NCBI RefSeq assembly: GCF_005869855.1
Contig: NZ_SZNH01000005.1
Location: 613 to 35,774, forward strand
Length of the DNA stretch: 35,162 nucleotides
Source: Nostoc sp. PA-18-2419
GTDB taxonomy: Bacteria > Cyanobacteriota > Cyanobacteriia > Cyanobacteriales > Nostocaceae
Direction of reading: 5' to 3'
The number at the start of each line of letters is the position of its first letter. Position 1 is the first letter of the stretch. The translations under genes were made by a program, and so were the position numbers. The notes under the pieces are model-generated. The model was not told the origin of the DNA, did no database searches, and saw nothing but the letters and a program-made list of their open reading frames with translations. Of this stretch, positions 5,058 to 31,025 are shown piece after piece.

Positions 5058-5410
5058 AACAACTTATCTCCGATTAGAGGTTAAATCAGACTTGAGTATA
5101 CAAGCTTTAGCAAGGTCTAACATCTGCCGATGAAAAGATATCTACTTAAAGAGAATGCTGCTTGCGAAATAATTTATCTACAAATTCTCTTTATAAATTG
5201 AAATGAGTGCAACTATTAAGTTTAAAATAAAAGGTCTCACTTATTATTATTTAGTGGCTCAGTACGTATAGCGCAGCCTACAGCTAGTACATTATCTGAA
5301 ATTGGTAAAAAGCTTGGGGTCTAAGTATTCTTACTTTTGACTTTTGACTTTTGCCTTATTGTACTAATGTCTGCGTTACTTAAATCCTGCTCTGGCCTGT
5401 GTTGGCGAAG
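5058..5410. other. Divergent promoter region with an STRR
   Basis: This 353-bp spacer lies between the BON gene and ilvN. It contains three ACTTTTG heptamers (5333-5353) about 57 bp before the ilvN start. No convincing T-box, leader peptide or riboswitch was recognised. Confidence 0.6.
5333..5353. repeat. STRR: three ACTTTTG heptamers
   Basis: Three exact adjacent copies lie in the leader or promoter region of ilvN. Confidence 0.85.
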
Positions 5411-5929
5411 ATGAAACATACTCTTTCAGTTTTGGTAGAAGATGAGGCGGGCGTTCTGTCCCGTATTTCTAGTTTATTTGCGCGTCGTGGTTTTAATATT
5501 GAAAGCCTTGCTGTCGGCCCGGCTGAACAAGGTGGTGTGTCGCGAATTACGATGGTTGTACCCGGTGACGATCGCATCATCGAACAACTCACCAAGCAAT
5601 TATACAAGTTAGTCAATGTCCTCAAGGTACAGGATATTACCGAAACTCCTTGTGTAGAACGAGAATTGATGCTATTAAAGGTCAATGCTACTAGCAGCAA
5701 TCGCTCAGAAGTAATCGAACTGTCTCAGATTTTCCGGGCGCGAGTCGTGGATGTGGCGGAAGATTCTCTGACTTTAGAAGTTGTGGGAGATCCGGGTAAA
5801 ATGGTAGCGATCGTCCAGGTATTACAAAAATTTGGTCTCAGAGAAATCGCCCGCACCGGCAAAATTGCCCTCACTCGTGAATCGGGTGTAAATACCGAAT
5901 TACTAAAATCTTTGGAAGTAAAGGTTTAG
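5411..5929 (+). CDS. ilvN: Acetolactate synthase small (regulatory) subunit
   Basis: This is the regulatory subunit of acetohydroxyacid synthase, the first common enzyme of branched-chain amino-acid synthesis; it activates the large subunit and confers valine feedback inhibition. The 172 residues show an N-terminal ACT domain ([34 protein letters not shown], then SRITMVV) and the C-terminal IlvN domain (REL.LLKV ... FRARVVDV ... [12 protein letters not shown] ... [13 protein letters not shown]). The length matches the family. An upstream in-frame GTG at 5399 would add four residues; the ATG at 5411 is chosen because orthologues begin [12 protein letters not shown]. The large-subunit gene is not adjacent, as is usual in cyanobacteria. 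Confidence 0.95.
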
Positions 5930-6128: not shown

Positions 6129-6221
6129 GATGTAAGTTAATTCTGACTGTTGATTGCGGACTACTTCTTTAATCAATTAAAAAGTAATAATAGCTACTAA
6201 CATATAAATAAGTATATATAG

Positions 6222-6293
6222 TTATGTCTTTTTATATGCAAAAGTTACGCCAACTTGGCATGACGCAACATATAAGAAACTGCTACAAAGTTG
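6222..6293 (+). promoter_or_regulatory. Conserved 72-bp upstream block A with GCCAA-N-TTGGC dyad
   Basis: This block aligns without gaps to 24487-24558: 57 of 72 bases match by hand count, with a perfect 14-base start (TTATGTCTTTTTAT) and a strong tail (TGCTACAAA.TTG). The perfect dyad GCCAA-C-TTGGC lies at 6249-6259; in the other copy only its central base differs. It is in the same orientation as the genes downstream, about 500 bp before the dehydratase. It could be an operator, a promoter-proximal leader or a small RNA. The function is inferred only from conservation and position. Confidence 0.6.
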
Positions 6294-6799: not shown

Positions 6800-8839
6800 A
6801 TGAATTTATCATTGTTATTTGTTTCTCAGTGGCTACCTAAAAAGTTAATTAATAAGTTATTAAATAATCTGCTAAATATTAGGAATAGACATTTATTCTT
6901 GTTCGATATTATTATTTTTTCAATAACAGTCTTATTAACTCTGAATCTCTGTTTAGATGGGAAGTTTTTCATCGAAGATTATAAATTAGAATTAGGAATC
7001 GTAACAATACTTTTTTTAGTGATAAAGCTTACTGTATTGTGGAATTTAGGTTTTTATAGACTTTACTGGCGCTATGCAAGTATTGAAGAACTTTTATATA
7101 TAACTATTGTTATGGGAATTTCAGTAGTAATCCAAGCGGTATTCTTTGATGTGATGCGATTATTCCCATATTTAACATTGGATATTTTACCGCGATCGCT
7201 ACCATTAATTGATGGATTGCTTTCATGTATTTTCATTGGGGGACTGCGTTTTACTATTCCAATTGTAGAAAGAATTAGTCAACAAAATACAGTATTTAAA
7301 CCACAAGAACGTGTATTAATAATTGGTGCTGGTAATGCTGGAATTTCTTTAGTACGAGAAATGCAAAGAAATCCCCAATTAGGGTTTTATCCTGTTGCTT
7401 TCATTGATGACGATCCTCGAAAATTTCGGGCATACATACGTGGGATTCCTGTAGTTGGCGATCGCTATCAAATTCCTGATATTTTACAATCTCTCCAAAT
7501 CCATAAAGCGATCATTGCTATGCCGACAGTTACAGGTAAAGTTATTCGAGAAATTGTAGATATTTGCAAAGCAACTGGAACTCAAACTAGCACTTTACCA
7601 GGCATACATGAAATTCTCAATGGTCGGGTGCGAGTTGACAGCATTCGGGATGTACGAATTGAAGATTTACTCAGACGCGAACCCGTACAAATAAATTTTG
7701 AAAAAGTTTCTCAATTTCTCAAAGGTAAAACAGTATTGATCACGGGTTCAGGTGGCTCAATTGGTAGCGAACTTTGCCGCCAAATTTTTAAATGCAATCC
7801 TGCTGAAATGATACTGATGGGACATGGAGAAAACTCTGTATTTAATATCCAACAAGAATTAGAACAACTTATTCAAGTACTCGAAAATGAAGGCAAATCA
7901 TCCATTAATACTCCTCATATTTCTACCTTTATTGCTGATATTCGCTTCAAGTCTCGATTAGAACATGCATTTAAAATATTTCAACCTGATGTCATTTTCC
8001 ACGCTGCGGCTCATAAACATGTCCCATTAATGGAATTAAATCCAGTAGAAGCAATCACTAACAATGTAATGGGAACAAAAAATTTAGTAGAACTAGCATT
8101 GCAATATGATGTAAAACATTTCGTGATGATTTCTACAGACAAAGCAGTTAATCCTACCAATGTTATGGGTGCGAGTAAAAGAGTCGCTGAAATGTTGGTA
8201 CTGCAAGCTGCAAGAGAAAGTGGCAAACCTTATGTAACTGTACGTTTTGGCAACGTTTTAGGCAGTCGAGGTAGTGTAGTTCCCACTTTTAAAAAACAAA
8301 TTGCAGCAGGTGGCCCAGTGACTGTCACTCATCCAGATATTCGTCGTTATTTCATGACTATTCCGGAAGCAGTTCAACTCGTTTTGCAGGCTGCAGTACT
8401 TGGTCATGGTGGTGAAGTTTTAATGCTGAATATGGGTAAACCTGTGAAAATTGTTGACTTAGCAAAGGAATTGATTCGTCTTTCTGGATATAAAGTAAAC
8501 CAAGATATTGAGATTGTATTTACTGGTTTGCGTCCAGGAGAAAAGTTATTTGAAGAATTATTTATTAGTGGAGAAGAATATCAACCAACCGAACACGAAA
8601 AACTCTTAGTAGTAAAAAATGCTAGTCAAATGATTCCAGAAAATTTAGATATAACTGTGACAACTTTGTGTCAAGCAGCAGTAAAAAATGATACGAGTTT
8701 AATTCTATTTTTACTTGAACAATTGGTACCAGGCTACAAACCCAAACACTTAAATAGTTATGTGGGAGGAAATATTTCCAGCAATACTTCACTCCAAACG
8801 AAGCCAAATATGAATATGTTGGCACAGGTAAAATCGTAA
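6800..8839 (+). CDS. Membrane UDP-HexNAc 4,6-dehydratase (CapD/WbpM/PglF group)
   Basis: This enzyme probably converts a UDP-HexNAc into the 4-keto-6-deoxy sugar that starts bacillosamine-, QuiNAc- or FucNAc-type synthesis. In the 679 residues, four hydrophobic helices (about 33-155) precede a first Rossmann module (GAGNAG, 176-181). The catalytic SDR domain follows, with TGSGGSIGSE (315-324), HAAAHKHVPLME and STDKAVNPTNVMGASKR (445-461). Here the usual catalytic Tyr is replaced by Met (M-x3-K), as in WbpM/PglF. RFGNVLGSRGSVVP and GLRPGEKLFEEL complete the family pattern. An upstream TTG at 6791 is possible, but AGAGG at 6784 is better spaced for the ATG at 6800. It is the first gene of the left polysaccharide block. 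Confidence 0.9.
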   Translation: MNLSLLFVSQWLPKKLINKLLNNLLNIRNRHLFLFDIIIFSITVLLTLNLCLDGKFFIEDYKLELGIVTILFLVIKLTVLWNLGFYRLYWRYASIEELLYITIVMGISVVIQAVFFDVMRLFPYLTLDILPRSLPLIDGLLSCIFIGGLRFTIPIVERISQQNTVFKPQERVLIIGAGNAGISLVREMQRNPQLGFYPVAFIDDDPRKFRAYIRGIPVVGDRYQIPDILQSLQIHKAIIAMPTVTGKVIREIVDICKATGTQTSTLPGIHEILNGRVRVDSIRDVRIEDLLRREPVQINFEKVSQFLKGKTVLITGSGGSIGSELCRQIFKCNPAEMILMGHGENSVFNIQQELEQLIQVLENEGKSSINTPHISTFIADIRFKSRLEHAFKIFQPDVIFHAAAHKHVPLMELNPVEAITNNVMGTKNLVELALQYDVKHFVMISTDKAVNPTNVMGASKRVAEMLVLQAARESGKPYVTVRFGNVLGSRGSVVPTFKKQIAAGGPVTVTHPDIRRYFMTIPEAVQLVLQAAVLGHGGEVLMLNMGKPVKIVDLAKELIRLSGYKVNQDIEIVFTGLRPGEKLFEELFISGEEYQPTEHEKLLVVKNASQMIPENLDITVTTLCQAAVKNDTSLILFLLEQLVPGYKPKHLNSYVGGNISSNTSLQTKPNMNMLAQVKS

Positions 8840-8904: not shown

Positions 8905-9912
8905 ATGTCTAAAAATTCTAATCCTATTTTGCAAGTATTTGATAAAGTATCTCAAGTTAATAGTAGATATTTATCTAGGATTAAGAATATTGCCAAGATA
9001 TTTGTCACGAGAAGAAGTGAGTGGTCAATTGGAATTTATCTAGGCGAATCTCCTTTTAGTTTTGTTTCTGCCAATACAATTATTAATCCAGTTTTGACTG
9101 CCAAGGATATAACAGATGTCCCAGCACACTTTGTTGCTGACCCATTTATGGTTCGTGAGGACGGCATTTGGTATATGTTCTTTGAAGTATTAAATAGTTT
9201 GCAAAATAAAGGAGTAATAGGACTAGCAAATAGTAATGATGCATACAAATGGAATTATCAACAAATTGTACTTGATGAACCGTTTCATTTGTCTTATCCA
9301 TATGTATTCAAATTTCAAAATGATTACTATATGATTCCAGAAACTTCACAAGCTAGTTCTATTCGTTTATATAAAGCAACTAATTTTCCAACCAAATGGT
9401 CTTTTATCCAAACTTTACTTTCTGAAAAAGATTTTGTAGATCCTAGTATTTTTCAATACAATAATCTTTGGTGGTTGTTGACTGCAACATCACAAGCAAG
9501 AAACACATTACGTCTCTATTATTCCCAAAATTTGATGGATACTTGGATTGAGCATCCTCAAAGTCCAGTGATTAAAGGAAGTAAAAATATAGCCAGACCA
9601 GCAGGTAGAGTTATAGTCTTCGATGGCAAAATTATTAGATATACCCAAGATTGTGAGCGGGTATATGGTCATCAAGTTAGAGCATTTCAAATAACTGAAT
9701 TGACGACAACAAATTATCAAGAGAAGGAAATTAAAAATAATCCAGTTATTAAAGCAAGTGGACTTGGTTGGAATCAAATAGGTATGCATCATATTGATGC
9801 TCACCAAATTGATAAAGATAAATGGATTGCATGTGTAGATGGAAAGCGTTATCAATTAGTTTTTAATCAAACTTTAATAACTAAAAGTTTGGCTAATATT
9901 AATTCAATTTGA
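8905..9912 (+). CDS. Beta-propeller protein like the N-terminal domain of GINT1
   Basis: This 335-residue protein has no signal peptide or membrane helix. From about residue 70 it shows repeated blade-like motifs: AHFVADPFMVREDGIWYMFFEV, LSYPYVFKFQNDYYMIPET, WSFIQTLL...FVDPSIFQYNNLWWLLTAT, then ARPAGRVIVFDGKIIRYTQDC. This resembles the five-bladed, GH43-like N-terminal domain of plant glucosamine inositolphosphorylceramide transferase 1, which also occurs in bacterial surface-polysaccharide loci. The acidic DPF motifs recall GH43-fold active sites, but hydrolysis is not implied. It follows the dehydratase by 65 bp. I infer a role in sugar recognition or transfer during repeat-unit assembly; a wrong family assignment is possible. 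Confidence 0.6.
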   Translation: MSKNSNPILQVFDKVSQVNSRYLSRIKNIAKIFVTRRSEWSIGIYLGESPFSFVSANTIINPVLTAKDITDVPAHFVADPFMVREDGIWYMFFEVLNSLQNKGVIGLANSNDAYKWNYQQIVLDEPFHLSYPYVFKFQNDYYMIPETSQASSIRLYKATNFPTKWSFIQTLLSEKDFVDPSIFQYNNLWWLLTATSQARNTLRLYYSQNLMDTWIEHPQSPVIKGSKNIARPAGRVIVFDGKIIRYTQDCERVYGHQVRAFQITELTTTNYQEKEIKNNPVIKASGLGWNQIGMHHIDAHQIDKDKWIACVDGKRYQLVFNQTLITKSLANINSI

Positions 9913-10106
9913 TTTGTGAGATTTATTTTTTATCACGCAGAGTCACCGAGAAAGCAGAGAGAAGAATAAAGAAAGTGAGATTTAGATAAATAATTTAGGA
10001 TTACTAAGTCATTTATTATTACAGACAGCAATCATAATTAAAATCTGCTAGTTAAAAGTATATTTTAATAAGTTGAGTTTGAATAAGATAGTGAGGAATA
10101 GAAAAG

Positions 10107-10901
10107 ATGTTAATTATCACAAAGAAATTTATCTTTTCAGTAGGAGAAGTTTGGTTTGATGAAGAGACACGAGAATTACCGAACGTGGATGTACTTCACT
10201 ACAGACAATGGATGCACCCCATTCAAGGTGGTCAATCTGATGAATTTTATACAAGATTAATTGATTTAACTAAAAGTCATGATGAACTTTGGGAAAGTAT
10301 TAGTAGTAATGATAGATATAAAATTAGACGAGCAGAGCAGAAAGACCAGGTAATTTATGAATATTGGGAGACCATAGACTCTAATATTATCGATGATTTT
10401 TCTGATTTTTATGATTTATTTGCTTTCCAAAAAGGCTTAAATAGAATTAATAAAACTCAACTTCAAAATCGTGTAAACGCTGGTGTAATTGATATTTCAC
10501 GTATCAAGTCAAAAGATGGTAGTTCTTTAGTTTGGCATGTTTATTATCGAAATAAAAATAGAGTTCGTCTTTTACATTCTGCATCTCTAAAAAAGAATAA
10601 TGATACTTCCTACCAATCAATTTTAGGACGAGCAAACCGTTATCATCACTGGCAGGATATTTTGAGATTTAAAAACTTGGGAATTTGTAGCTATGATTTT
10701 GGCGGGTGGTATACCGGAAATACAGACCAAGAAAAATTAGGTATTAATGAGTTTAAAGAAAAGTTTGGCGGAGAAGTTGTCAAGAATTTTAATTGTGTTA
10801 ATGGTATTACTTTGAAAGGGAAGTTATATTTATATATTCTGAAAATATATTTCAGGTTATCTCAATTTCCTAAATCACATTTCTTGAATTTTAAATTTTA
10901 A
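10107..10901 (+). CDS. FemAB/GNAT-like acyl- or aminoacyltransferase
   Basis: This 264-residue protein has the look of half a FemAB-type double GNAT fold. ELWESISSNDRYKIRRAEQKD (about 71-91) matches the W..l....R..IrkA signature, and YDFGGWYTGNTDQEKLGINEFKEKFGGE (about 199-226) matches the final YDfGG ... FK..FGg strand-loop. FemAB relatives transfer amino acids or other acyl groups to amino functions of cell-wall precursors; relatives in polysaccharide loci are uncharacterised. The substrate is unknown. Its place between the propeller protein and the flippase suggests decoration of the lipid-linked repeat. The ATG has a GAGG about 11 bases upstream. Confidence 0.6.
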   Translation: MLIITKKFIFSVGEVWFDEETRELPNVDVLHYRQWMHPIQGGQSDEFYTRLIDLTKSHDELWESISSNDRYKIRRAEQKDQVIYEYWETIDSNIIDDFSDFYDLFAFQKGLNRINKTQLQNRVNAGVIDISRIKSKDGSSLVWHVYYRNKNRVRLLHSASLKKNNDTSYQSILGRANRYHHWQDILRFKNLGICSYDFGGWYTGNTDQEKLGINEFKEKFGGEVVKNFNCVNGITLKGKLYLYILKIYFRLSQFPKSHFLNFKF

Positions 10902-11033
10902 ATATTTGATTAAGTTTCTCAAAATTAAAAATTTTCTCTTATGCGAAAATAAGTTGAAAATCATTGCAACCAATAAATTCGCAAAAATCAGACACACCAA
11001 GATGATTGGTAATCTAAAATACAAAATTATACA

Positions 11034-12404
11034 ATGTGGCATTTGCAAAGCTTTGTTGATTACTGGAAGAAGCTGACAAGTGGCTCTATCAATCGCCAAA
11101 TTTTTGGTGCTGCGATGATAGTTGGTTTATTGACAGCATTGGTTAAAGTAGCGGCTGTGGGTAAAGAATTGGTGGTTGCTCAGAGGTTTGGCACTGGAGA
11201 TGACATAGATGCGTTTTTAATTGCTTTGTTGATACCTTCTTTTATTATTAACGTAATCGCTGGTTCTTTTAATACTGCTCTCATACCTACTTATATGCAG
11301 ATACGAGAGCAGGAAGGTACAAAAGCTGCTCAAAGGCTTTTCTGTGGAGCCACAATCAGTGGCTTGGGACTGTTAGTAATTACAACAATACTGATGGTAG
11401 TTCTAGCACCCTTGTATTTACCACGAATTGCGACTGGATTTAGTCCCCAAAAGTTAGAGCTGACTTTTCATTTGCTCTGCGCGATCGCACCTTTTGTTTT
11501 CTTAAGTGGGATTATTGTCATTTGGGGTGCTGTATTGAATGCAGGGGAGCGTTTTGCTTTAGCAGCATTCTCACCAATTATTACTCCAACTGTTACCGTT
11601 GTATTGCTTTTAACGCTGAAATCTTTGAGTATTTTCGCTTTGGCTGCTGGATTAGTCTGCGGTGCAGTACTAGAAATAATTCTCTTAGGAACAGCGCTGC
11701 ACCGACAAGGCATTTCATGGGTTCCGAAATGGTATGGATTTGACACTAATCTGCGTCAAGTTGTTCGCCAATATTTCCCGATGATTGCGGGAGGACTTTT
11801 AATGTGTAGTACAAACTTAGTCGATCAATCTATGGCAGCAATGTTGTTACCTGGTAGCGTTGCAGCACTCAACTACGGTAACAAAGCGATCGCATTTCCC
11901 ATGTCTCTAGCCACTACAGCATTAAGTACTGCTGTGATTCCCTATTTTTCTAAAATGATTGCTGCTAACGATTGGGTAGGCACACGTCGCACACTTAAGC
12001 GATATATGCAGATAATTTTTATCACAACTATTTTACTGTCAATATTCTTATTTGTATTTTCTGAATCTATAGTCAAAATACTTTTTCAAAGAGGTTCGTT
12101 TACAGCTGATGACACTCATTTAGTAGCCCAAATTCAAAGTTTTTTTGCTTTCCAAATACCTTTTTACGTAGCGGGAATTATGGTAGTACGATTAATTTCA
12201 GCAATGCAAGCCAATCATATATTGATGTGGGCTTCTGCATATAATCTCATTAACAATATTATTTTAAACTATTTATTTCTCCACTATTTTGGGGTTGCAG
12301 GTATTGCTCTATCAACAGCCTGTGTTTCTGCCTTAGCATTTTTCTTTTTATCATATTTTGCTCATAAAAAAATCAAAAAATTCTCTGCAACTTCAACAAC
12401 CTAG
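11034..12404 (+). CDS. MurJ/MVF-family lipid-linked oligosaccharide flippase
   Basis: This 456-residue polytopic protein has about 12-14 hydrophobic segments and belongs to the MurJ (MviN) branch of the MOP exporter superfamily. Signatures include VGKELVVAQRFGTGDDIDAFLIALLIPSFI, SFNTALIPTY, NLVDQSMAAMLLPGSVAALNYGNKAI and KILFQRGSFTADDT. MurJ flips lipid II. In cyanobacterial polysaccharide loci without a classical Wzx, such proteins are thought to flip the undecaprenyl-linked repeat unit, and that is the role inferred here because no other Wzx-like gene is seen. No clear ribosome-binding site precedes the ATG. Confidence 0.85.
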   Translation: MWHLQSFVDYWKKLTSGSINRQIFGAAMIVGLLTALVKVAAVGKELVVAQRFGTGDDIDAFLIALLIPSFIINVIAGSFNTALIPTYMQIREQEGTKAAQRLFCGATISGLGLLVITTILMVVLAPLYLPRIATGFSPQKLELTFHLLCAIAPFVFLSGIIVIWGAVLNAGERFALAAFSPIITPTVTVVLLLTLKSLSIFALAAGLVCGAVLEIILLGTALHRQGISWVPKWYGFDTNLRQVVRQYFPMIAGGLLMCSTNLVDQSMAAMLLPGSVAALNYGNKAIAFPMSLATTALSTAVIPYFSKMIAANDWVGTRRTLKRYMQIIFITTILLSIFLFVFSESIVKILFQRGSFTADDTHLVAQIQSFFAFQIPFYVAGIMVVRLISAMQANHILMWASAYNLINNIILNYLFLHYFGVAGIALSTACVSALAFFFLSYFAHKKIKKFSATSTT

Positions 12405-12489
12405 TTTTCAGATTGACCCTTTCTTCATCTCTGGGATCTGCATCTGAAACGCCTATGGGTGATTTTATATATACTCATATTGCACCACA

Positions 12490-13602
12490 ATGAAACTAAC
12501 ATTAATTATTCATTCCCTTACCTATGGTGGTGCCGAACGGATTATGTCAATTATGGCAAACTACTGGGCAGCTAAGGGATGGCAAATTACATTATTAACA
12601 TTTGATAACAATAAAGTACCGGACTTTGATCTCGACTCTCATGTAAATTATATTCCCTTAGGGATAGCTGAAAAATCTCCGACTGCAATAATTGGCATCT
12701 GGAATAATATAAAACGCATCAAAATTCTCCGAGATGCAATTATTAATAGTAAACCAGATGCCGTAATTAGCTTTATGTCTAAAACTAATACGATCACTTT
12801 ACTAGCAACGCGGTGGTTGAACATCCCAATAGTAGTTTCTGAACGTAGTAATCCCATCAAAAGTTCTTTAGGTTGGAATTGGCAACAACTACGACAATGG
12901 ACTTATCCATTTGCAGACAAAATTGTTTTTCAAACTCAACGAGCAAAGGATTATTTTCCATCGGAACTACAAAATCATAGCTGTATTATTCCTAATATGG
13001 TTGTATTACCACCAATAAAAAAACATTCATCAGAAAAATTTTTAACAGAGCGATCGCTAATTGCTATGGGACGTTTTGTACCAGAGAAAGGCTTTGATTT
13101 ATTGCTACAAGCTTTTGCCAAACTAAAAGATAATTATCCAGAATGGACATTAACTATTTTAGGAGACGGTAAATTACGTCCAGAATTGGAAACTTTACGT
13201 AACCAACTAAGACTAAGTGATCGCGTTCATTTTCCGGGAATGGTGAACAATACTTATACTTTTTTACAACAGGCAGAGTTTTTTATTATGTCTTCCCGTT
13301 TTGAAGGTTTTCCCAACGCTCTTTGTGAAGCAATGGCATGTGGTTTACCAGTTATATCCACAGATTGTCCTAGTGGCCCACGAGAGATTATTCGTGATGG
13401 TACAGATGGTATTTTGGTTCCGAATGAAGATGTTTCAGCATTAGCCACAGCAATAGAACGACTGATGTCTAACGAACAAGAACGAAAATCTTTAGCTGCT
13501 CGTGCGCCAGAAGTAACTGAACGATTTAGTGTCAAAAAAATAATGGGAATGTGGGAAGAAGTATTAGCTCAAGTTATTAAAAAGAAACCCAAGTTTATCT
13601 GA
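12490..13602 (+). CDS. GT4-family glycosyltransferase (1)
   Basis: This 370-residue GT-B enzyme has an N-terminal acceptor domain starting MKLTLIIHSLTYGGAERI and a Glycos_transf_1 C-terminal domain. MGRFVPEKGFDLLLQAF opens the donor half, and the retaining E-x7-E motif is E272 (in FEGFPNALCE) and E280. It would transfer a sugar from a nucleotide donor to the growing lipid-linked repeat at the cytoplasmic face. Donor and linkage cannot be read from sequence. It lies 85 bp after the flippase gene in the same transcriptional direction. Confidence 0.88.
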   Translation: MKLTLIIHSLTYGGAERIMSIMANYWAAKGWQITLLTFDNNKVPDFDLDSHVNYIPLGIAEKSPTAIIGIWNNIKRIKILRDAIINSKPDAVISFMSKTNTITLLATRWLNIPIVVSERSNPIKSSLGWNWQQLRQWTYPFADKIVFQTQRAKDYFPSELQNHSCIIPNMVVLPPIKKHSSEKFLTERSLIAMGRFVPEKGFDLLLQAFAKLKDNYPEWTLTILGDGKLRPELETLRNQLRLSDRVHFPGMVNNTYTFLQQAEFFIMSSRFEGFPNALCEAMACGLPVISTDCPSGPREIIRDGTDGILVPNEDVSALATAIERLMSNEQERKSLAARAPEVTERFSVKKIMGMWEEVLAQVIKKKPKFI

Positions 13603-13712
13603 AAACTGTAAACTTTAGATAATTAGCTTTATTAGAAAAGTCATTATTTTATCTTCTTTGCACCTTAAACTGCAAAAAATATATTTTTAGAGAAAATATA
13701 ATAAATTAAACA

Positions 13713-15041
13713 ATGAATATCCGAAAATCTCTTTACTTCACTTATGCTTCTTATAGAAATTACAGTTTTCCTCACCTGTATAATCAATTCGTTAAAGAAA
13801 GTTTATTTAATGTTTCTATTAATCCAACTAAAGAGTTATTAACAAAAATTTTGATTCATTGCCATAGATTTGTTCCATACTATGCCAAATTAATCGAAAG
13901 TCTACCTAATAAAGAAATTATTCACCAAACACCAAAACTATATCTTTGTCAATTTCCAATCCTGACAAAAGATATTATTCGTACAAACTTTGAACAAATA
14001 AAATCTACAGATTTAGCACAGCGCCAGTGGTATTTAAATACATCAGGTGGTTCAACAGGAGAGCCAATTAAATTAATTCAAGATGCTGACTACAATGACT
14101 ACTCTACAGCAATTAGCTTACTTTATTCTTATTTAGTTGGACGAGAATTAGGAGAGCCAGAAGTTCATTTATGGGGTTCAGAAAAAGATATTTTTCAGGG
14201 TACAATCGGATGGAAAGCAAACTTTTTTAATTTTTTGAGAAATACCACATATATGAATGCCTTTCAGATGACTCCTCAAAGAATGAGAAATTTTCTGAAA
14301 TCGCTAAATACAAAACAACCAAAATTAATTGTTGCCTACGCTCAAGCAATTTATGAATTAGCAAAATTTGCTGAATCTGAACAAATTAAACTTGTTCCTC
14401 AAAAAGCAATTATAACTTCTGCTGGAACACTTTACACTTGGATGCGCCAAAAGATTGAGGCTGTATTTCAATGTCAAGTATTTAATCGTTATGGTTCTAG
14501 AGAAGTTAGTGATGTTGCCTGTGAAAAACCAGGAGAGAAGGGGTTGTGGGTAGCTCCTTGGGGTAATTATATTGAGATTGTAGATGATGATAATAATCCT
14601 GTGCCACCAGGAGTTGAAGGTAATATTTTAGTTACTTCTCTGATCAACTTTGCTATGCCGTTGATTCGATATAAAATTGGCGATCGCGGTACTTTATCTC
14701 CTGAATATAAATCTGGACAAATACTACAGCAAGTTTCCGGAAGAAATGTTGATATTTTTAAAACTCATACCGGAACTTTAATCGATGGAGAATATTTTAC
14801 TCATCTTCTATACTTCAAAGATTGGGTGCATAAATTTCAAATAATTCAAAAAAGCTACTTAGAAATTACCATCAAAATTATTAAAGCTAATTCTGATTAT
14901 TTCACTGAAGAACTCGATGACATAGTCGCTAAGTGCAAGCTGATGATGGGGAAAGATTGTGTAGTCAATTTTGAGTTCGTGAATAATATTCCTGTTAATC
15001 ATTCTGGTAAATATCGCTACACCATTTCCGAGGTTGATTAA
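13713..15041 (+). CDS. CapK/PaaK-like adenylate-forming enzyme
   Basis: This 442-residue protein of the ANL superfamily resembles phenylacetate-CoA ligase and capsular CapK. The P-loop-like phosphate motif is SGGSTGEP (111-118), the aromatic A5 motif is YGSRE (260-264), and the A7/A8 region is RYKIGDRG (319-326). Such enzymes activate a carboxylate as acyl-AMP and usually pass it to CoA. In polysaccharide loci they are suspected of activating a non-sugar acyl substituent, but the substrate is not established. The stop codon is followed directly by the ATG of the next gene, so the two are probably co-translated. Confidence 0.8.
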   Translation: MNIRKSLYFTYASYRNYSFPHLYNQFVKESLFNVSINPTKELLTKILIHCHRFVPYYAKLIESLPNKEIIHQTPKLYLCQFPILTKDIIRTNFEQIKSTDLAQRQWYLNTSGGSTGEPIKLIQDADYNDYSTAISLLYSYLVGRELGEPEVHLWGSEKDIFQGTIGWKANFFNFLRNTTYMNAFQMTPQRMRNFLKSLNTKQPKLIVAYAQAIYELAKFAESEQIKLVPQKAIITSAGTLYTWMRQKIEAVFQCQVFNRYGSREVSDVACEKPGEKGLWVAPWGNYIEIVDDDNNPVPPGVEGNILVTSLINFAMPLIRYKIGDRGTLSPEYKSGQILQQVSGRNVDIFKTHTGTLIDGEYFTHLLYFKDWVHKFQIIQKSYLEITIKIIKANSDYFTEELDDIVAKCKLMMGKDCVVNFEFVNNIPVNHSGKYRYTISEVD

Positions 15042-16190
15042 ATGAAAAAGAAGATTGTATTCTTGATTCGCTCTTTGAACTATGGAGGAGCAGAAAGACA
15101 ATTAGTCACACTAGTAAAAGCTCTGGATCGAGAATACTTTGATGTAACCATTTTATGCTTTTATGCTGGTGATTCATTATCTCTAGATAAAAACTTACAA
15201 GATAGTAATATCTCGATAATTTATTTAAAAAAACAGGGACGTTGGCATTTATTTGGCTTTTTTCGGCGTCTTGTTCAGCATCTTCACCGTATACATCCCG
15301 ATATATTGCATGGATATGGTGGAACACCAAATTTACTCACTATTTTCTTAAAGCCTTTTTTTCCCTCAACCCGTATGGTTTGGGGATTACGTAATTCTGA
15401 TACTGATTCTAATTTTTATGATTGGTTAGGGCGTTTAATCTTACAGTTAGAATGTCTTTTATCCAGTTTTGCTGACTTGATTATTATCAATTCTTATGCT
15501 GGTCAAGCATCTTATCTAACTCATGGATTTCCATCTGACAAGATGATGGTAATTTCTAATGGTATTGATATCGAACTTTTTCAGCCTGACTTAGAAGCTA
15601 GAACCAAAGTCCGATCACAGTGGGGAATTTCAGAAAATACGATTTTAATTGGTTTAGTGGGGCGACTAGATTCTAGAAAAGATCATCCGACATTTCTTAA
15701 AGCAGCAGCACTACTGTGTGAAGATAACCAGAATGTGCATTTTGTTTGTGTAGGTAGTGGTTCAGAAAATTATGCACACGAGTTGGATGAACTAGCTCAT
15801 CACTTAGGCATCTCTGAGAAAGTTATCTGGGCAAAAGCGCGTGCAGATATGCCTGCAATCTACAATGCTCTAGATATTGCTGCTTCTTCATCTTATACAG
15901 AAGGATTTCCCAATGTAATTGGAGAGGCGATGGCGTGCGGTATACCTTGTGTGGTGACAGATGTAGGCGACTCAGCTTGGATTGTTGGTGATACCGATGT
16001 AGTGGTACCTCCCAAAACTCCACTAGCTTTGAAAACTGCCATGAAGAAATTGATAGAAAATCTCGCTCTTAATGGTTGCGATCGTACTCAAATTCGACAA
16101 CGAATAATTGACAAATTCTCAGTAGCTCAATTAGTCCTTACAACCGAAGCCACTATTCTTAGTTTATGTCATGAATCATTCTCTAAATAA
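15042..16190 (+). CDS. GT4-family glycosyltransferase (2)
   Basis: This 382-residue GT4 enzyme starts with FLIRSLNYGGAERQLVTL and has LVGRLDSRKDHPTFLKAA at the start of the donor domain and the E-x7-E pair E287/E295 in EGFPNVIGEAMACG. The following block CVVTDVGDSAWIVGDT is shared almost unchanged with the glycosyltransferase at 17388, so the two are paralogues flanking the polymerase gene. The start abuts the stop of the CapK-like gene, and the end overlaps the polymerase gene by 20 bp. Donor sugar unknown. Confidence 0.88.
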   Translation: MKKKIVFLIRSLNYGGAERQLVTLVKALDREYFDVTILCFYAGDSLSLDKNLQDSNISIIYLKKQGRWHLFGFFRRLVQHLHRIHPDILHGYGGTPNLLTIFLKPFFPSTRMVWGLRNSDTDSNFYDWLGRLILQLECLLSSFADLIIINSYAGQASYLTHGFPSDKMMVISNGIDIELFQPDLEARTKVRSQWGISENTILIGLVGRLDSRKDHPTFLKAAALLCEDNQNVHFVCVGSGSENYAHELDELAHHLGISEKVIWAKARADMPAIYNALDIAASSSYTEGFPNVIGEAMACGIPCVVTDVGDSAWIVGDTDVVVPPKTPLALKTAMKKLIENLALNGCDRTQIRQRIIDKFSVAQLVLTTEATILSLCHESFSK

Positions 16191-17391
16191 AAAATTTAAT
16201 TTCTTCTTTTTTTACCAATCTACCCTGGCATTAGGGGCTATTTTCACTTTTTTCACAGATATTAATTCCTATTTATATACATCAGGAATTATTTCTCAAC
16301 CTCCTTTAGTTTGGATCATAGCGTTTGCTGTATTCTCTCTTCCCTTACTTTTTTCATCAAACAAGTTCATACCACTCTCTATAATTAGTTGGTGTTTTAG
16401 TTTTATTTTTATTTCATTATTGTGGTTTGTACTATTTTCCAGTTTTGGAGAACTTGCTTTTGAAGAATTGAGAAAACGAATCTTAACAGTAATTTTTCTC
16501 CTTTGCATGTCATTAATTTTTTCTCAACATCCAAAAATTCATTACTTAACTCGATGGGCTATATTTTTAGCAGTATTGATGGGTATATTTAATAATTTTT
16601 GTGAATTTATTAACCCCGTCGTATTTAATTCATTAGGTGATGGTGGTCGGGCTGCTGGATTTTATTTAAATCCCAATAGTAATGGCTGTGCATTAATACT
16701 TGGGATGATTTTTAGTGTAAGTTTATTACAGCCGATATATCGTTTACCTTTCGTATCTCTCGTCGGTATTGGAGTTTTCTTGACATTTTCCCGAGGAGCT
16801 ATTGTTGGCTGGTTACTTGTAGTTATTATTTTTACGTTTGTGGGCGTGCTTCATTTTAACAAATTACTTTATTGGGCTTTGGGAATAGGGATTTTCATTA
16901 TTAGCTTAGGCTCACAATGGTGGGACGAACTATTACAAAATTTAAATTTAAATCAAAACTCTCTCGAAAGAATTGCCTGGTTTCAAAATATTTCAACTTC
17001 TGATTCTGAAGATTCTGCTGATTCGCGTTTAGAAGTGGCTCAATTGGCTTGGCAGATGTTTACTAAACGTCCCTTCTTAGGTAATGGAATTGGCTCAACT
17101 TTAACCTGGAATATGGATATATCCACACATAATATGTATTTGTATTATATGGCGGATCATGGAATTATCGGCGCTTTTATTTTACCTCTATTAGTATATG
17201 CAGTGACACAGCACGCCCGTGGAGAAACTAAATATATTGGCTTAGCTTTTGGGGCTTTTATTCTTCTTTGGGGACTATTTAGCCATAATGTTTTAGAGGA
17301 GCGCTATATCCTCATTATGTTTTCATTGATGGCTGCAATGACTAGAGGGAGTTGGTTAGAACAAAAATATCAACTAGAAAATCTATTATGA
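16171..17391 (+). CDS. O-antigen polymerase/ligase family protein (Wzy-like)
   Basis: This 406-residue membrane protein has about 10-12 hydrophobic helices. The Wzy_C-type region contains GIGVFLTFSRGAIVGWLL, and a long extracytoplasmic loop follows (about 245-320) ending in FLGNGIG and STHNMYLYYMADHGIIG, typical of O-antigen ligase and polymerase proteins. Within a Wzx/Wzy-type locus the likely job is polymerising lipid-linked repeat units on the outer face of the cytoplasmic membrane; ligation to another acceptor is the alternative. It overlaps genes on both sides (20 bp upstream, ATGA downstream), evidence for one operon. Confidence 0.82.
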   Translation: MNHSLNKKFNFFFFYQSTLALGAIFTFFTDINSYLYTSGIISQPPLVWIIAFAVFSLPLLFSSNKFIPLSIISWCFSFIFISLLWFVLFSSFGELAFEELRKRILTVIFLLCMSLIFSQHPKIHYLTRWAIFLAVLMGIFNNFCEFINPVVFNSLGDGGRAAGFYLNPNSNGCALILGMIFSVSLLQPIYRLPFVSLVGIGVFLTFSRGAIVGWLLVVIIFTFVGVLHFNKLLYWALGIGIFIISLGSQWWDELLQNLNLNQNSLERIAWFQNISTSDSEDSADSRLEVAQLAWQMFTKRPFLGNGIGSTLTWNMDISTHNMYLYYMADHGIIGAFILPLLVYAVTQHARGETKYIGLAFGAFILLWGLFSHNVLEERYILIMFSLMAAMTRGSWLEQKYQLENLL

Positions 17392-18554
17392 AAATTATTT
17401 ATATCATTACTGGACTCTCCACTGGTGGTGCTGAAGTTATGCTTTATAAACTTCTTTCCAGGATGAATCGAGAGCGTTTTAGTCCAGTTGTTGTTTCTTT
17501 AATGCATTATGGTACATGGGGCGATCGCATTGTAAATTTAGGCATTCCTGTTTATACCATTGGTATGAAACCAGGAAAGCTAAAACTAGTTGATATTTGG
17601 CGAATCATTCACATAGTACGCCAACTCAAACCTGATTTAATTCAAGGTTGGATGTATCACGGAAACTTAGCTGCACAAGTTGTTAAACTTTTTATATTTA
17701 GACAAGTGCCTGTTTTCTGGAATGTGCGTCATTCACTTTCTTCTTTAGATTTAGAAAAACCGCTAACAACTACTATTATTAAACTGTGTGCTAATGTTTC
17801 ATACTTACCTACAAAAATTATTTATAACTCTCAGAATAGTTCTCAACAACACGAAAAAAGTGGTTACTCTTTTGATAAAACCTGTATAATTTCCAATGGT
17901 TTTGAAACAGAAAAATTTATCCCATCAACCAAGGCTCGCCTCAATATCCGTTTAGAATTAAATACTGACGAAAATAATTTGTTGATTGGTTTGATTGGTC
18001 GTTATCATCCTGTCAAAGACCATTTTAATTTTCTTCAAGCTGCTGCATTATTACTTAAAAAGTCTGCCAACGTTCAATTTGTTCTCGCAGGCAGTAAAGT
18101 TGATTGGCAAAATCAGATTTTATCTGAATTAATCCATGAATTAGGGCTTGTTAAGCACATACATCTATTAGGTGAACGTCATGATGTGCGTTGTTTAACC
18201 GCTGCTTTTGATATCGCTTCTTCTTCTTCTTCTGGAGAAGGTTTTCCCAATGTTATTGGCGAAGCAATGTCTTGTAGTGTTCCTTGTGTAGTCACAGATG
18301 TGGGAGACTCAGCTTGGATTGTCGGTGATACCGGAAAGGTCGTACCCCCAAGGAATCCAGAAGCATTAGCAAATGCTTGGCAAGCATTAATCGATATCGG
18401 GAAAGAAGGTAGAGAAAGTTTAGGAAAAGCAGCACGAGCAAGAGTCATCAAATATTTTTCTTTAGACTCCATTGTGGCTCAATACGAGGCACTGTATGAC
18501 AATGTGTTAGTTCAAAAAAACATCAGAATTCATCAGAAGGTAGTGCAGTCTTAA
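17388..18554 (+). CDS. GT4-family glycosyltransferase (3)
   Basis: This 388-residue GT4 enzyme starts MKIIYIITGLSTGGAEVML at the ATG that overlaps the polymerase stop as ATGA; an in-frame TTG at 17352 would only add an unlikely extension inside the previous gene. The donor domain opens with LIGLIGRYHPVKDHFNFLQAA, and the E-x7-E residues are E284/E292 in EGFPNVIGEAMSC. It shares the long PCVVTDVGDSAWIVGDT block with the paralogue at 15042. It is the last gene of the left block, which ends 139 bp before a convergent gene. Confidence 0.88.
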   Translation: MKIIYIITGLSTGGAEVMLYKLLSRMNRERFSPVVVSLMHYGTWGDRIVNLGIPVYTIGMKPGKLKLVDIWRIIHIVRQLKPDLIQGWMYHGNLAAQVVKLFIFRQVPVFWNVRHSLSSLDLEKPLTTTIIKLCANVSYLPTKIIYNSQNSSQQHEKSGYSFDKTCIISNGFETEKFIPSTKARLNIRLELNTDENNLLIGLIGRYHPVKDHFNFLQAAALLLKKSANVQFVLAGSKVDWQNQILSELIHELGLVKHIHLLGERHDVRCLTAAFDIASSSSSGEGFPNVIGEAMSCSVPCVVTDVGDSAWIVGDTGKVVPPRNPEALANAWQALIDIGKEGRESLGKAARARVIKYFSLDSIVAQYEALYDNVLVQKNIRIHQKVVQS

Positions 18555-24313: not shown

Positions 24314-24486
24314 TGGGGTAAAACTTTTAACTCCATTTTCTAACGCCACTTGCTACAACAGAGGGAACCTTCAGAGCGCGCTGGCTCCTCTCTGCTTCCT
24401 ACTCCCTGCCAATAACAAATAAGTTCAAAAATTAAAGCGAATTACTATATAAGAATAACAACTCATAGACAATTCCGTAGATGTGA

Positions 24487-24558
24487 TTATGTCTTTTTAT
24501 TTGTAGAAGCTGCGCCAATTTGGCATGACTCAAACAACAAAACAGTGCTACAAAATTG
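24487..24558 (+). promoter_or_regulatory. Conserved 72-bp upstream block B with GCCAA-N-TTGGC dyad
   Basis: This block aligns ungapped with 6222-6293. The dyad GCCAA-T-TTGGC lies at 24514-24524. It ends 192 bp before the start of the UDP-sugar dehydrogenase gene and has the same orientation relative to its genes as block A. Five of the six differences in the 29 bases around the dyad are transitions, and none disturbs the dyad arms. Confidence 0.6.
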
Positions 24559-24750: not shown

Positions 24751-26031
24751 ATGAGTAACCGTATTGCAGTTATTGGTCTTGGTTACGTTGGTCTACCTGT
24801 TGCCCTAGCATTTGCTAAAAAATTTCCCCAGACTATTGGATTTGATATTAATTTAGAGAAAGTTATAAGTTTAAAGCAAGGTATTGATTGTACAAATCAA
24901 ATCTCTACTGACGAATTAATAAATTCTAGTCTAATTATCACTTCAGAACTTTATGATTTAGTAGACACGAACTTTTTTGTAATTGCTGTACCAACACCAG
25001 TTGACCGCAATCATAATCCTGACTTGACTTTGCTAATAAAAGCCTCTGAACTCGTTGGAAAAGTCTTACAACCTGGAGCGATTGTAGTGTATGAATCTAC
25101 AGTTTATCCAGGGGTGACAGAGGATATCTGCAAAGCAACTTTGGCCAAAGTATCAGGTTTACAACCAGGTGTTGATTTTAAGTTGGGCTATTCTCCAGAA
25201 CGGATAAATCCGGGTGACAAAGCTCATACATTAGAAAAGATTGTCAAAGTGGTAGCTGGAGAAGATGCCCAAACTCTGGAACGAGTTGCAAGTGTGTATA
25301 CCGCGATTATTGATGTCGGTGTTTATCGCACCTCTTCGATTAAAGTAGCTGAGGCTGCCAAAGTCATTGAAAATACTCAGCGAGACTTAAATATTGCTTT
25401 GATGAACGAACTCGCACTCATATGCGATCGCCTTGGTATCCGCACCCATGATGTTTTAGCAGCAGCCAACACCAAATGGAACTTTTTACCGTTCACTCCC
25501 GGACTTGTTGGTGGTCACTGCATTGGAGTTGACCCTTACTATCTAACTACTAAAGCAGAAGAATTGGGATATCATCCCGAAGTCATCTTAGCTGGTCGTC
25601 GGATTAACGACGGTATGGGTACTTACCTTGGTCAGCGTTTTGTCAAACTCTTAATTGAAGCTAACTTGTCGATTAAACAAGCACGAGTAGGAATTCTCGG
25701 TCTGACTTTTAAGGAAAATGTACCCGACATCCGCAATAGTCGCATACCAGATATTGTCAGAGAATTGCAGCAATTTGGTATTGAACCACTCTTACACGAT
25801 CCTCTGGTAGATCCTGATGAAGCACACCAAGAATATGGGATTAATTTAGTCGATTGGCATAACCTGTCTAATTTAGACGGAGTAATATTTGCAGTCAGTC
25901 ATCAAGCTTATTTAGATATGCCTTGCGAACAACTTCTTAACTGTTTGCGTCCAGGTGGAGTATTGATGGATATCAAATCCATTTTTAGCCAAGCTACACT
26001 ACCACCACATATTCATTACTGGAGCTTATAG
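24751..26031 (+). CDS. tviB: UDP-N-acetylhexosamine 6-dehydrogenase (TviB/WbpA type)
   Basis: This enzyme oxidises C6 of a UDP-HexNAc to the uronate with two NAD+. The 426 residues contain the N-terminal Rossmann motif [75 protein letters not shown], the catalytic Cys257 in [13 protein letters not shown], and [15 protein letters not shown]. Several of these blocks match TviB of the Vi-antigen pathway closely, which favours UDP-GlcNAc over UDP-glucose as substrate. Block B lies upstream. It is followed after 10 bp by the epimerase gene, whose ribosome-binding site overlaps this stop codon. Confidence 0.88.
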
Positions 26032-26041
26032 GAGAAACATT

Positions 26042-27103
26042 ATGGTCAAGGTTTTAGTGACTGGTGCTGCTGGTTTTATCGGTTTTCATCTCAGCCAGTG
26101 TCTATTGACCAGAGGTGATGAGGTTGTTGGTTTAGATAACCTCAATGATTACTACGATGTTGTGCTGAAAAAAGACCGTTTAACTCAATTACAAGAAAGA
26201 CCTGGTTTTAGTTTTTATCAGATAGACTTGTCAGACTCGGTAACTATAGCCCAACTCTTTGCTGAACAACGCTTTGATGTGGTCGTCAATTTAGCAGCAC
26301 AAGCTGGCGTCCGCTACTCCATCAAGAACCCTCACGCCTATATAAACAGTAACTTGGTCGGCTTTATTAACATCCTCGAAGGTTGTCGTCATTCAGGTGT
26401 TCAGCATTTGGTATTTGCTTCTTCTAGTTCTGTTTACGGTGCTAATACTAAAATGCCTTTTTCTGTTCACGACAATGTAGACCATCCAGTTAGTTTATAC
26501 GCTGCGACTAAAAAAGCTAACGAGTTAATGGCTCATAGTTATAGCCATTTATATGGTCTACCAACAACTGGACTCCGCTTTTTTACTGTTTATGGGCCGT
26601 GGGGTCGTCCAGATATGGCGCTGTTTTTGTTCACTAAAGCAATTTTGACAAAACAGCCAATCGATGTGTTTAATTACGGAAAAATGTGCCGAGATTTTAC
26701 CTATATTGACGACATTGTAGAGGGTATTGTCCGAGTGATGGATAAAATTCCTCAGCCAAATATTGCTTGGTCAGGAAATACACCCGACCCAGGAACGAGT
26801 AAAGCTGCTTATAAAATTTACAATATAGGTAACAATCAACCGGTTCAATTAATGCGCTTTATAGAAGTGCTAGAAGATTGTCTGGGAATGAAAGCAGAAA
26901 AAAATTTACTACCTCTACAACCTGGTGATGTCCCCGTTACCTATGCAGATGTTGATGATTTAGTTCACGATGTAGGCTTTAGACCTAGCACGCCTATAGA
27001 AGTAGGAATTGAACGTTTTGTAGCTTGGTATTGTTCTTATTATCAGAAAGCTAATACTCGACTAAGCCGAAATTCTTGGGTGAGGGTGGGGAGTCGGGAA
27101 TAA
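26042..27103 (+). CDS. NAD-dependent UDP-uronate 4-epimerase
   Basis: This extended SDR of 353 residues has [10 protein letters not shown] at residues 8-17, the catalytic Tyr153-x3-Lys157 in [10 protein letters not shown], and [18 protein letters not shown]. It looks most like UDP-glucuronate 4-epimerases (the LpsL/Cap1J/GAE group). Its tight pairing with a TviB-type dehydrogenase makes UDP-GlcNAcA to UDP-GalNAcA conversion (the TviC role) equally plausible. The AGGAGA overlaps the upstream stop codon, and the stop TAA shares its last A with the ATG of the next gene, so it is translationally coupled on both sides. Confidence 0.85.
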
Positions 27104-28260
27104 TGAAGATACTCCATATATGTGCAATTGGAGGCACTGTTGAGGCGCTTTTACGACCTCAAATAGATTATTTTTTGTCTCAGAATCTATCTGTTGAAAT
27201 AGCTTGTTCTCCAGGTTCAGAAGTAAAAAAACTCCAGAATCAAGGGTATGTAATTCATCCGATAGAAATTGATCGCCGGATTTCTCTGGTGAGAAATTTG
27301 AGAAGTATTTATCAATTGATGCAATTAATTAGGCAAAATCGATATGACCTTGTTCACGTACACACTCCGATTGCTGCTGTCTTAGGTCGCATTGCTGCTA
27401 AGCTGGCTGGTGTTAAACGAATTGTCTATACTGCTCACGGCTTTCCGTTTCACGATCGCTCCTCACCTAGTCAATATCGTTTTTATTTTACTGTTGAGAA
27501 ATTTACTGCTTTGATAACTGATTTGATTCTTACCCAAAATCATGAAGATATTGCCACAGCTAAAAAATTAAATCTTTGTCCGCCGGAAAAATTGGGTTAT
27601 TTGGGTAATGGTGTAGACATTAATCGCTTCCGACGCGATCGCCTCAATTCCACTCACCAAATTCAATTACGAAAATCTCTAGGTATCCCGGATAATACTA
27701 ACTTCATTATTGGTACAATTGGACGCATAACTCAGAAAAAAGGCAGTGGATATTTAATTGAAGCCGCAGCCAAACTACTTCCTGATTTTCCAAATTTACA
27801 AGTTTTAATCATTGGCTCTCAACTTAGTAGTGATCCTGAACCTTTCTACACAGAATTAATTCAAAAAATTCAATCTTTAGGAATTGAAAAACATGTTATC
27901 TTGACAGGAGAACGCGAAGATATCCCAGAAGTTTTAGGTTTACTAGATATCTTCACGTTACCGACATTCACTCATGAAGGACTACCGCGTTCTATTCTCG
28001 AGGGAATGTCAATGGGTTTACCAGTTGTCACTACAGATATTCGTGGCTGTCGAGAAGCAGTAATTCATGGAAAAACGGGTTTAATTGTACCACCTCAAAA
28101 TAGTCAAAAGTTAGCTGAGGCTTTGGGAATATTATTATCTAATTCGGAATTGCGACAAAGTTATGGTCAAGCTAGTCGTGAACGCGTTGAAGTTACTTAT
28201 GATGAAGAATTAGTTTTTGGACGACTTAAGAAGTACTATCAAGAGTTAGAGATTATTTGA
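27103..28260 (+). CDS. GT4-family glycosyltransferase (4)
   Basis: This 385-residue protein begins [24 protein letters not shown] at the ATG overlapping the epimerase stop (TAATG); a GTG at 27076 lies inside the epimerase gene and is not favoured. Motifs include LVHVHTPIAAVLGRIAAK, YTAHGFPFH, IIGTIGRITQKKG and the E-x7-E pair in HEGLPRSILEGMSMGLPVV. This subfamily often sits next to phosphoglycosyl transferases and acts early, adding the second sugar. That position fits here, 150 bp before the PglC-like gene. Confidence 0.87.
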   Translation: MKILHICAIGGTVEALLRPQIDYFLSQNLSVEIACSPGSEVKKLQNQGYVIHPIEIDRRISLVRNLRSIYQLMQLIRQNRYDLVHVHTPIAAVLGRIAAKLAGVKRIVYTAHGFPFHDRSSPSQYRFYFTVEKFTALITDLILTQNHEDIATAKKLNLCPPEKLGYLGNGVDINRFRRDRLNSTHQIQLRKSLGIPDNTNFIIGTIGRITQKKGSGYLIEAAAKLLPDFPNLQVLIIGSQLSSDPEPFYTELIQKIQSLGIEKHVILTGEREDIPEVLGLLDIFTLPTFTHEGLPRSILEGMSMGLPVVTTDIRGCREAVIHGKTGLIVPPQNSQKLAEALGILLSNSELRQSYGQASRERVEVTYDEELVFGRLKKYYQELEII

Positions 28261-28410
28261 AAAGAAATGTAGTAATAAATTAATTAAAAATAATTAGTAA
28301 ACTTTTTATTATTCTCTGTGATTGGTTAAAAAATTAACTAGTGGAATTTTGATATGTCAGAAAAATAGTGAATAAAGAAATTCACGCAGATCTGCCTGCA
28401 CAGAAGAGGA

Positions 28411-29097: not shown

Positions 29098-29133
29098 CGG
29101 TTTTTATCGGCTATAGCAGAGGAAGTGAAAAAT

Positions 29134-30911: not shown

Positions 30912-31025
30912 TATTTACAAAAACACTGCTCATATTAGGAGAATAAAAATTTTTCAATGATGCAAATTACATGCAAGTTGGTATCAGTTAGAAGACATAA
31001 TTGAAATTAAATACAGGAGAAATCA

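Follow-up and report, generated by a model that had tools for sequence, protein, structure and literature searches.

A promoter-like element duplicated upstream of two Nostoc polysaccharide operons recurs before polysaccharide and C39 peptide exporter operons across Nostocaceae

Introduction

Exopolysaccharide sheaths of Nostoc-family cyanobacteria are important for desiccation tolerance, colony form and bloom mucilage. The control of Wzx/Wzy operons in these cyanobacteria seems little described; the case that we found is XssQ of Synechocystis 6803, where several upstream regions of the synechan (xss) Wzx/Wzy exopolysaccharide cluster share an activator site near the start (PMC8205485). The window analyzed here, a stretch of 35,162 nucleotides from Nostoc sp. 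PA-18-2419, holds two polysaccharide operons, A and B, and a sequence-only reading of it had pointed out a 72-bp block with a dyad upstream of each. What kind of element is this block, and which genes does it serve in Nostoc and in the rest of the family?

Results

Two copies of a 109-bp unit face the polysaccharide operons of the window

Realignment bore out the gapless match of 57/72 between positions 6222-6293 (copy A) and 24487-24558 (copy B), against a chance ceiling of 43/72 for the best ungapped 72-mer between both spacers in 300 Markov-resampled pairs. The surrounding spacers had been called dissimilar, which proved incorrect on the upstream side, where the likeness goes on for 37 nt beyond 6222 (23/37); the full unit comes to about 109 bp with 80/109 positions identical (Table 1). 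Both copies were indeed found to face the operon 3' of them. Copy B is the sole strong match of copy A in its own 7.6-Mb genome (E 9.7e-12; runner-up 0.029), and a 114-position profile search of that genome returned no third copy (next E 0.40). The dyad GCCAA-N-TTGGC is unbroken in both copies. The further claim that its central base alone varies holds for the window pair and breaks down over the 23 copies collected from Nostoc, three of which carry an inner-arm change (GCCAG twice, GCCAT once). A terminator-like stem of 9 pairs, followed by T-rich DNA, is called on the minus strand (6244-6269) over the dyad region of copy A; copy B received no such call.

The space between the two operons is occupied on the minus strand (18694-21676) by a sorbosone-dehydrogenase-like gene and an RTX-repeat gene; the 19.9 kb past copy A in one relative (G026) hold no ORFs of either kind, and two RTX-like ORFs were seen in another (G013). 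A Pfam search of the 21 window proteins detected no transcription factor or regulator gene, response-regulator and helix-turn-helix families included, and among 17 proteins from beyond the window or from relatives no transcription factor was detected by Pfam, save a cNMP-binding domain within an exporter.

Table 1. Positions of the two repeat copies, their sub-elements and the neighboring genes in the window
Feature	Position	Strand	Evidence and remarks
ilvH-type acetolactate synthase small subunit, upstream neighbor of copy A in many genera	5399..5929	+	named from sequence; match in 189/192 family genomes
Copy A, whole conserved unit (109 bp), 5' of FlaA1-led polysaccharide operon	6185..6293	+	genome BLAST against copy B 73%, E 9.7e-12; 12 A-type copies aligned
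TTATGTCTTTTTAT sub-element, copy A, genus-level	6222..6235	+	TTATGTCTTTTT in 23/23 copies, AT next in 22; outside family-wide core
Dyad GCCAACTTGGC, putative operator, copy A, center 6254 (about -42 from predicted start)	6249..6259	+	G, C, A / T, G, C invariant in 29 divergent sites
ATGACG, possible -35 element, copy A	6260..6265	+	RTGAC in 22/29 sites; 18 bp from TACAAA; putative role
TGCTACAAA, putative extended -10, copy A, expected start about 6296	6281..6289	+	T55 G56 T58 A59 (TG-N-TA) invariant in 29 sites; TACAAA exact in 20/29
FlaA1/CapD-like polysaccharide biosynthesis protein, first gene of operon A, about 500 nt past expected start	6800..8839	+	PF02719, E 3.9e-119
Rest of operon A: GINT1_N-like, ORF without Pfam match, MurJ-type flippase, glycosyltransferases, AMP-ligase-like (below Pfam cut-off), Wzy	8905..18554	+	Pfam
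Putative glycosyltransferase ORF, operon A	17352-18554	+	called from sequence
Copy B, whole conserved unit, 5' of UDP-glucose dehydrogenase-led operon	24450..24558	+	BLAST against copy A; 11 B-type copies aligned
TTATGTCTTTTTAT sub-element, copy B	24487..24500	+	alignment of Nostoc copies
Dyad GCCAATTTGGC, putative operator, copy B, center 24519	24514..24524	+	alignment and 29-site conservation
ATGACT, possible -35 element, copy B	24525..24530	+	putative role
TGCTACAAA, putative extended -10, copy B, expected start about 24561	24546..24554	+	same 29-site conservation
Operon B: UDP-glucose dehydrogenase, epimerase, glycosyltransferase, sugar-phosphate (priming) transferase, three ORFs without Pfam match, DegT aminotransferase	24751..33357	+	Pfam

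A-type and B-type copies are kept apart in Nostoc

The 72-bp block was matched in 13/59 genomes, two of which (G027 and G037) gave a single weak match (E 0.004-0.007). Strong matches occurred in 11/59 genomes, the source genome included, and every one of these holds both an A-type copy, at least 85% identical to copy A of the window, and a B-type copy, 75-80% identical to it; G016 holds two A copies. A and B lie on one contig and on the same strand about 15-30 kb apart in 9/11 genomes and on separate contigs in G008 and G016. The 23 Nostoc copies align nearly without gaps, with TTATGTCTTTTT present in 23/23, TACAAA in 20/23, and CGCCA and TTGGC nearly or fully invariant. The TTATGTCTTTTTAT part is a feature of the Nostoc copies. 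Further upstream, AATAACTACT stands exactly 33 nt 5' of TTATGTC in 11 of the 23 (5 A-type and 6 B-type), and variants of it occur in some other copies. A 3-bp deletion between the dyad and TACAAA is common to three B copies (G030, L026; G009, L027; G016, L033).

For all 23 copies the nearest neighbor is a copy of the same type, and A-B identity within genomes (0.687) equals that between genomes (0.687; permutation P 0.41, in the 10 genomes that entered the comparison, from which G016 was left out). These two results point to a duplication older than these species, with A and B each maintained by itself, and not to gene conversion. Along the A-type alignment, conservation is high across the block, falls past it and rises again only near the gene start; one of the G016 copies (G016a), whose FlaA1 match is a fragment only, was misplaced in that run.

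A compact core recurs across Nostocaceae

Some of the weak matches of the Nostoc profile in other genera shared TTnTG[C/T]CA-N3-TGGC-RTGAC-N16-TG-N-TACAAA-nTTGAT. We inspected 26 of the weak first-profile matches and kept the core-like ones for a core model; L156, L158-L160, L162, L164-L166, L168-L172 and L174 were set aside by eye, and a decayed copy in G299 and a G280 site were excluded from the model. The core that survives in other genera reads GYCA-N3-TGGC-RTGAC-N15/16-TG-N-TACAAA, in which GYCA-N3-TGGC is the conserved form of the dyad. None of 29 divergent sites departs from G, C, A / T, G, C in the dyad or from TG-N-TA, and the spacing between the two halves of the core is N16 in 21/29 and N15 in 8/29. 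RTGAC is not kept in 7/29; its loss is fullest in G437, G438 and G445, where the dyad is retained.

The strict pattern GCCANNNTGGCNTGACN{16,24}TACAAA was found 32 times in 217 family genomes, against one match for the reversed control. With the core model, 95 sites were detected in 72/217 Nostocaceae genomes (E<=1e-5); 29 of the 95 are the model-building set, chosen by the look of their sequence and for part of them with the gene context already known, and 66/95 had no part in building the model. Outside the family, weak core-model matches (E 1e-4 to 1e-3) occur in six genomes, more than the E-values alone predict, and the core may be spread wider than Nostocaceae. No convincing gene context was seen for partial sites at G363:C1:6895852 and G445:C45. 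Two further weak sites (G385:C81, L329; G409:C237, L356; E about 1e-5) have the dyad GCCAAATTGGCATAA and no good TACAAA; 3' of them, by eye, come a small ORF that resembles a Cys-rich leader peptide and a haemagglutinin-like gene.

An exact 17-nt dyad pattern retrieved 105 stretches in contigs, of which the 19 named as Nostocales were inspected and 13 had the block; L059, L071, L072, L078, L134 and L138 have the dyad in two other recurring contexts, which we take for coding sequence. The remaining 86/105 come mostly from other phyla, judging by their titles.

Sites precede polysaccharide operons and one kind of peptide exporter operon

If the block were a mobile repeat, its matches might lie at random relative to genes and polysaccharide loci, as the sequence-only reading had put it. 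Instead, 82 of the 95 sites were assigned to polysaccharide genes, 10 to one kind of exporter operon, with a C39 peptidase, and 3 to others. A FlaA1 orthologue follows 55/95 sites on the same strand at 204-1133 bp (median 541, from the end of the model match to the start of the protein match). The other 40 sites comprise the 10 exporter sites and 27 more that were assigned to polysaccharide genes. Thirteen of the 40 are B-type copies from Nostoc, and each of the eight whose downstream gene was inspected (all except those of G009, G032, G022, G481 and G485) is followed by the start of a UDP-glucose dehydrogenase. Seven sites stand before a Wzx-type flippase, and single ones before a sugar-phosphate transferase, a GINT1_N gene and a GH28 gene. 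Broken FlaA1 genes lie behind two sites (G517 and G473:C111), a FlaA1 fragment lies behind the one at G016:C6, and the site in G444 is followed by ORFs that read, by eye, like an acyltransferase and a glycosyltransferase. The three others precede a pentapeptide/RTX protein, a hydrolase-like ORF (G417:C69, by eye) and, in G299, no such gene.

The gene behind the ten exporter sites encodes a C39-peptidase/cNMP-binding ABC exporter, identified by Pfam on the G480 copy and by eye in G479; in G326, a transposase-like ORF stands between site and exporter. Exporter operons of this kind were located at L287, L288, L296 and L304 (G480, G312, G421 and G533), and Pfam assigns to the G480 operon a cNMP-binding/C39 ABC transporter, HlyD and a rotamase. 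G421 has a second exporter operon, whose site is weak (E 2.7e-5). Near some exporters, small ORFs with double-glycine-like stretches were noticed by eye; one was scanned and had no Pfam match. The C39 transporter of G480 carries an additional N-terminal region and is accompanied by HlyD and a rotamase, as in the group I/II double-glycine bacteriocin clusters of cyanobacteria (PMC3140520); the likeness is one of gene content. The word promoter does not appear in the main text of that publication, and the link between the exporter and a promoter that polysaccharide operons also use was drawn in the present analysis.

Several genomes contain more than one site. G480 and G475 have three each, those of G480 standing at a FlaA1 operon, at a C39 exporter and at a pentapeptide/RTX (exoprotein-like) gene, and G188 has two within one polysaccharide locus.

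The element accompanies its operons to different places

FlaA1 has 101 orthologues in 96/217 genomes. We scanned the 1.5 kb 5' of 44 of the 46 FlaA1 genes remaining after the model search (G473:C49 and G466:C219, at contig ends, were left out) and obtained 7 extra sites (E<0.001), all on the gene strand, which raised the number with a site to 62/101. No site was detected in the 1.5 kb 5' of the other 37 scanned genes, and together with the two at contig ends 39/101 are without a detected site. FlaA1 therefore does not require the site, and the association is strong and not universal. Sites before FlaA1 follow ilvH, a dnaA-like gene (G480) or a wzc-like gene (G360 and G412), both kinds named by eye, or lie elsewhere (G354, G472 and G475). 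Inheritance at a single locus does not account for the sites, which accompany the operon to different places.

The slot after ilvH (5930-6796 in the window; loci L205-L284) carries FlaA1-led, Wzx-led or C39-exporter-led cassettes or none in different Nostocaceae, which gives it the look of a cassette hot spot. Among 78 of 80 ilvH-downstream regions (L213 and L252 were dropped as too short), a polysaccharide or exporter gene was present in 16/17 with a site, 15 of which had supplied a training site, and in 7/61 without one, where it may be a piece of such a gene (Fisher 2e-10; FlaA1 fragments in G520 and G385 and a 37% ABC match in G379 were counted as positive).

Since the content of this slot differs from genus to genus, the block could also be a mobile repeat or a recombination site for the swapping of polysaccharide cassettes. 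We consider this very improbable: its own genome has just two copies, the copies are oriented and linked to the starts of genes, no homogenization of the two types is seen within genomes, and the site goes with the presence of a cassette in the ilvH regions.

In the Nostoc genome G299 (L207), which lacks a close FlaA1, an orphan copy A is left after ilvH (G299:C3:5822567-5822672). Its upstream part is intact, the TTGGC of the dyad is changed and TACAAA is gone, a pattern of decay expected for a functional site released from selection. Two ilvH-FlaA1 spacers without the dyad/TACAAA core contain TTATGTCTTTTT (G447, L238) or TTATGTATTTTT (G128, L242); because it is present there without a detected core, the TTATGTCTTTTT-type sub-element may be functional by itself.

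The conserved core reads as a probable promoter with a putative adjoining operator

The sequence-only reading had left the choice among a promoter plus operator, a leader and a small RNA. The first fits best. TG-N-TACAAA would act as an extended -10, with transcription starting at the positions given in Table 1, RTGAC(N) as a weak -35 element at a distance of 18 bp on its 5' side (in some relatives 17), and GYCA-N3-TGGC, the dyad directly upstream, as the site of a dimeric activator. Its center at about -42 is the usual position for activators that contact RNA polymerase. An extended -10 predicts TG-N-TA, which was present and invariant in the 29 divergent sites. The sixth position of a -10 element usually has to be a T; this T is missing from TACAAA, and a simple sigma-70 scan that requires it calls no promoter there. 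A shared operator predicts a constant geometry, and the dyad was found at a near-constant distance from the promoter before several operons, the exception being the three B copies of G009, G016 and G030, where the 3-bp deletion would alter the geometry of dyad and TACAAA. These observations suggest that the copies are probably a promoter region with one operator, through which a dimeric regulator, itself probably an activator, would drive both operons. The probabilities that we attach to the rivals of this reading overlap and need not sum to one.

The same promoter might be silenced rather than activated, with a repressor bound to the dyad, overlapping the polymerase footprint until a signal arrives. 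The dyad adjoins the -35-like RTGAC, and an operator at the edge of a -35 element can act as an activator site or as a repressor site. The weak -35 and the atypical -10, which has no sixth T, speak of a promoter that needs help rather than shutting off, and where RTGAC is lost in G437, G438 and G445 the dyad is kept, which fits an activator that replaces the -35 contact. We therefore regard a repressor as unlikely, though the strongest of the rivals.

Conservation of the entire core as a single unit, with an atypical -10, would also suit the promoter of a particular alternative sigma factor, in which the dyad would be part of the sigma contact and no operator. We know of no sigma factor that contacts a symmetric 11-bp dyad. 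The SigJ-dependent J-Box promoters of Nostoc punctiforme are a lineage-wide extended -10 type, and the genes that depend on SigJ include the hormogonium polysaccharide genes hpsA-D (PMC6495340); the block resembles these promoters as a lineage-wide cyanobacterial extended -10-type motif tied to polysaccharide genes. It differs from the J-Box as given there (GGG plus aAtacT, PMC6495340) in that GGG occurs in the last 45 nt of 0/23 Nostoc copies and 1/29 divergent sites, no aAtacT was seen by eye, and a dyad stands alongside the motif. An alternative sigma factor appears improbable, clearly more so than a repressor.

A further possibility is that the block lies in the leader and, like JUMPstart/ops, loads an RfaH-like elongation factor that serves long operons for polysaccharides and secretion. 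RfaH targets are polysaccharide and type I secretion operons, and the target classes found here resemble them, as does the occurrence of a short common sequence upstream of both; the distance of the sites from the FlaA1 match would also suit a leader. RfaH and LoaP are paralogues of NusG. In 38 genomes, of which 20 have a site and 18 lack an intact one (G299 among the latter), exactly one NusG-domain match per genome was detected (E<=1e-5), and the conserved piece, unlike JUMPstart/ops, looks like a promoter rather than a leader, with TG-N-TACAAA at a nearly fixed distance. Given the lack of a second NusG paralogue in the 38 genomes, RfaH/LoaP-type antitermination was rejected, and we hold recruitment of this kind to be quite improbable, somewhat below the sigma alternative and about level with, if slightly above, the mobile repeat.

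Least probable of all is a leader RNA element or small RNA under structural selection. The dyad can fold as a stem of 4 pairs with a 3-nt loop, and copy A folds slightly better than shuffles (z -1.78), an advantage that copy B lacks (z 0.17). Of the 4 pairs in the consensus fold, none is changed on both sides in the Nostoc copies, and in the 29 divergent sites three of the four never vary, with the fourth changed on one side in 5 and unpaired in 1; the check for covariation thus spoke against RNA structure. No Rfam family matched the window at gathering scores, and the fall of conservation past the block argues against a leader element.

Discussion

Our analysis suggests that the repeated block is very probably a promoter with a dyad operator, and as such it looks like the switch region for a gene set of the outer coat of the cell. 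We infer that a regulator binds the dyad and that operons A and B are co-expressed, the coupling following from the shared promoter. One dimeric regulator encoded outside the window, probably an activator, would turn on the two operons together, and the flippase, polymerase and transferases would be made alongside the UDP-sugar enzymes and the priming transferase. The proposal that the block couples two operons making one polysaccharide is plausible in this form; it is too narrow in scope, as the element reaches beyond that pair to 82 polysaccharide and 10 exporter sites. Since the same promoter serves exopolysaccharide and C39 exporter operons across Nostocaceae, the gene set of the regulator would be that of the cell surface and the extracellular matrix.

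The closest known arrangement, XssQ and the xss cluster, likewise has one site type common to several exopolysaccharide upstream regions (PMC8205485). The XssQ consensus given there, AAGTTXXAC, was found in 0/23 Nostoc copies and 0/29 divergent sites on either strand, and unlike the XssQ site the candidate site of the block is a symmetric dyad, with no response-regulator or helix-turn-helix Pfam match among the 21 window proteins. The element would be of a familiar kind, a promoter/operator motif common to the members of a regulon; its set of targets is unusual. A search of the open-access full-text literature, where most subscription papers are missing, found no description of the motif, and among the matches listed for the dyad letter string in open full text there was no cyanobacterial title, which is weak evidence that the motif is undescribed.

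More tentatively, and at somewhat less than even odds in our judgment, the sites may define a Nostocaceae-wide matrix regulon, in which one dedicated dimeric activator acts on a portable composite promoter, GYCA-N3-TGGC / RTGAC / TG-N-TACAAA, placed on Wzx/Wzy and C39 peptide-export operons, such that the same signal would switch both capsule building and peptide secretion. In Nostoc the promoter would have been duplicated and one locus run from two synchronized promoters.

The motif, present in 72/217 genomes and mostly before such operons, offers a direct means of isolating the regulator; for a given genome it predicts the polysaccharide locus that joins the regulon. Its use by exporter and polysaccharide operons alike suggests that matrix building is linked to peptide secretion in these cyanobacteria.
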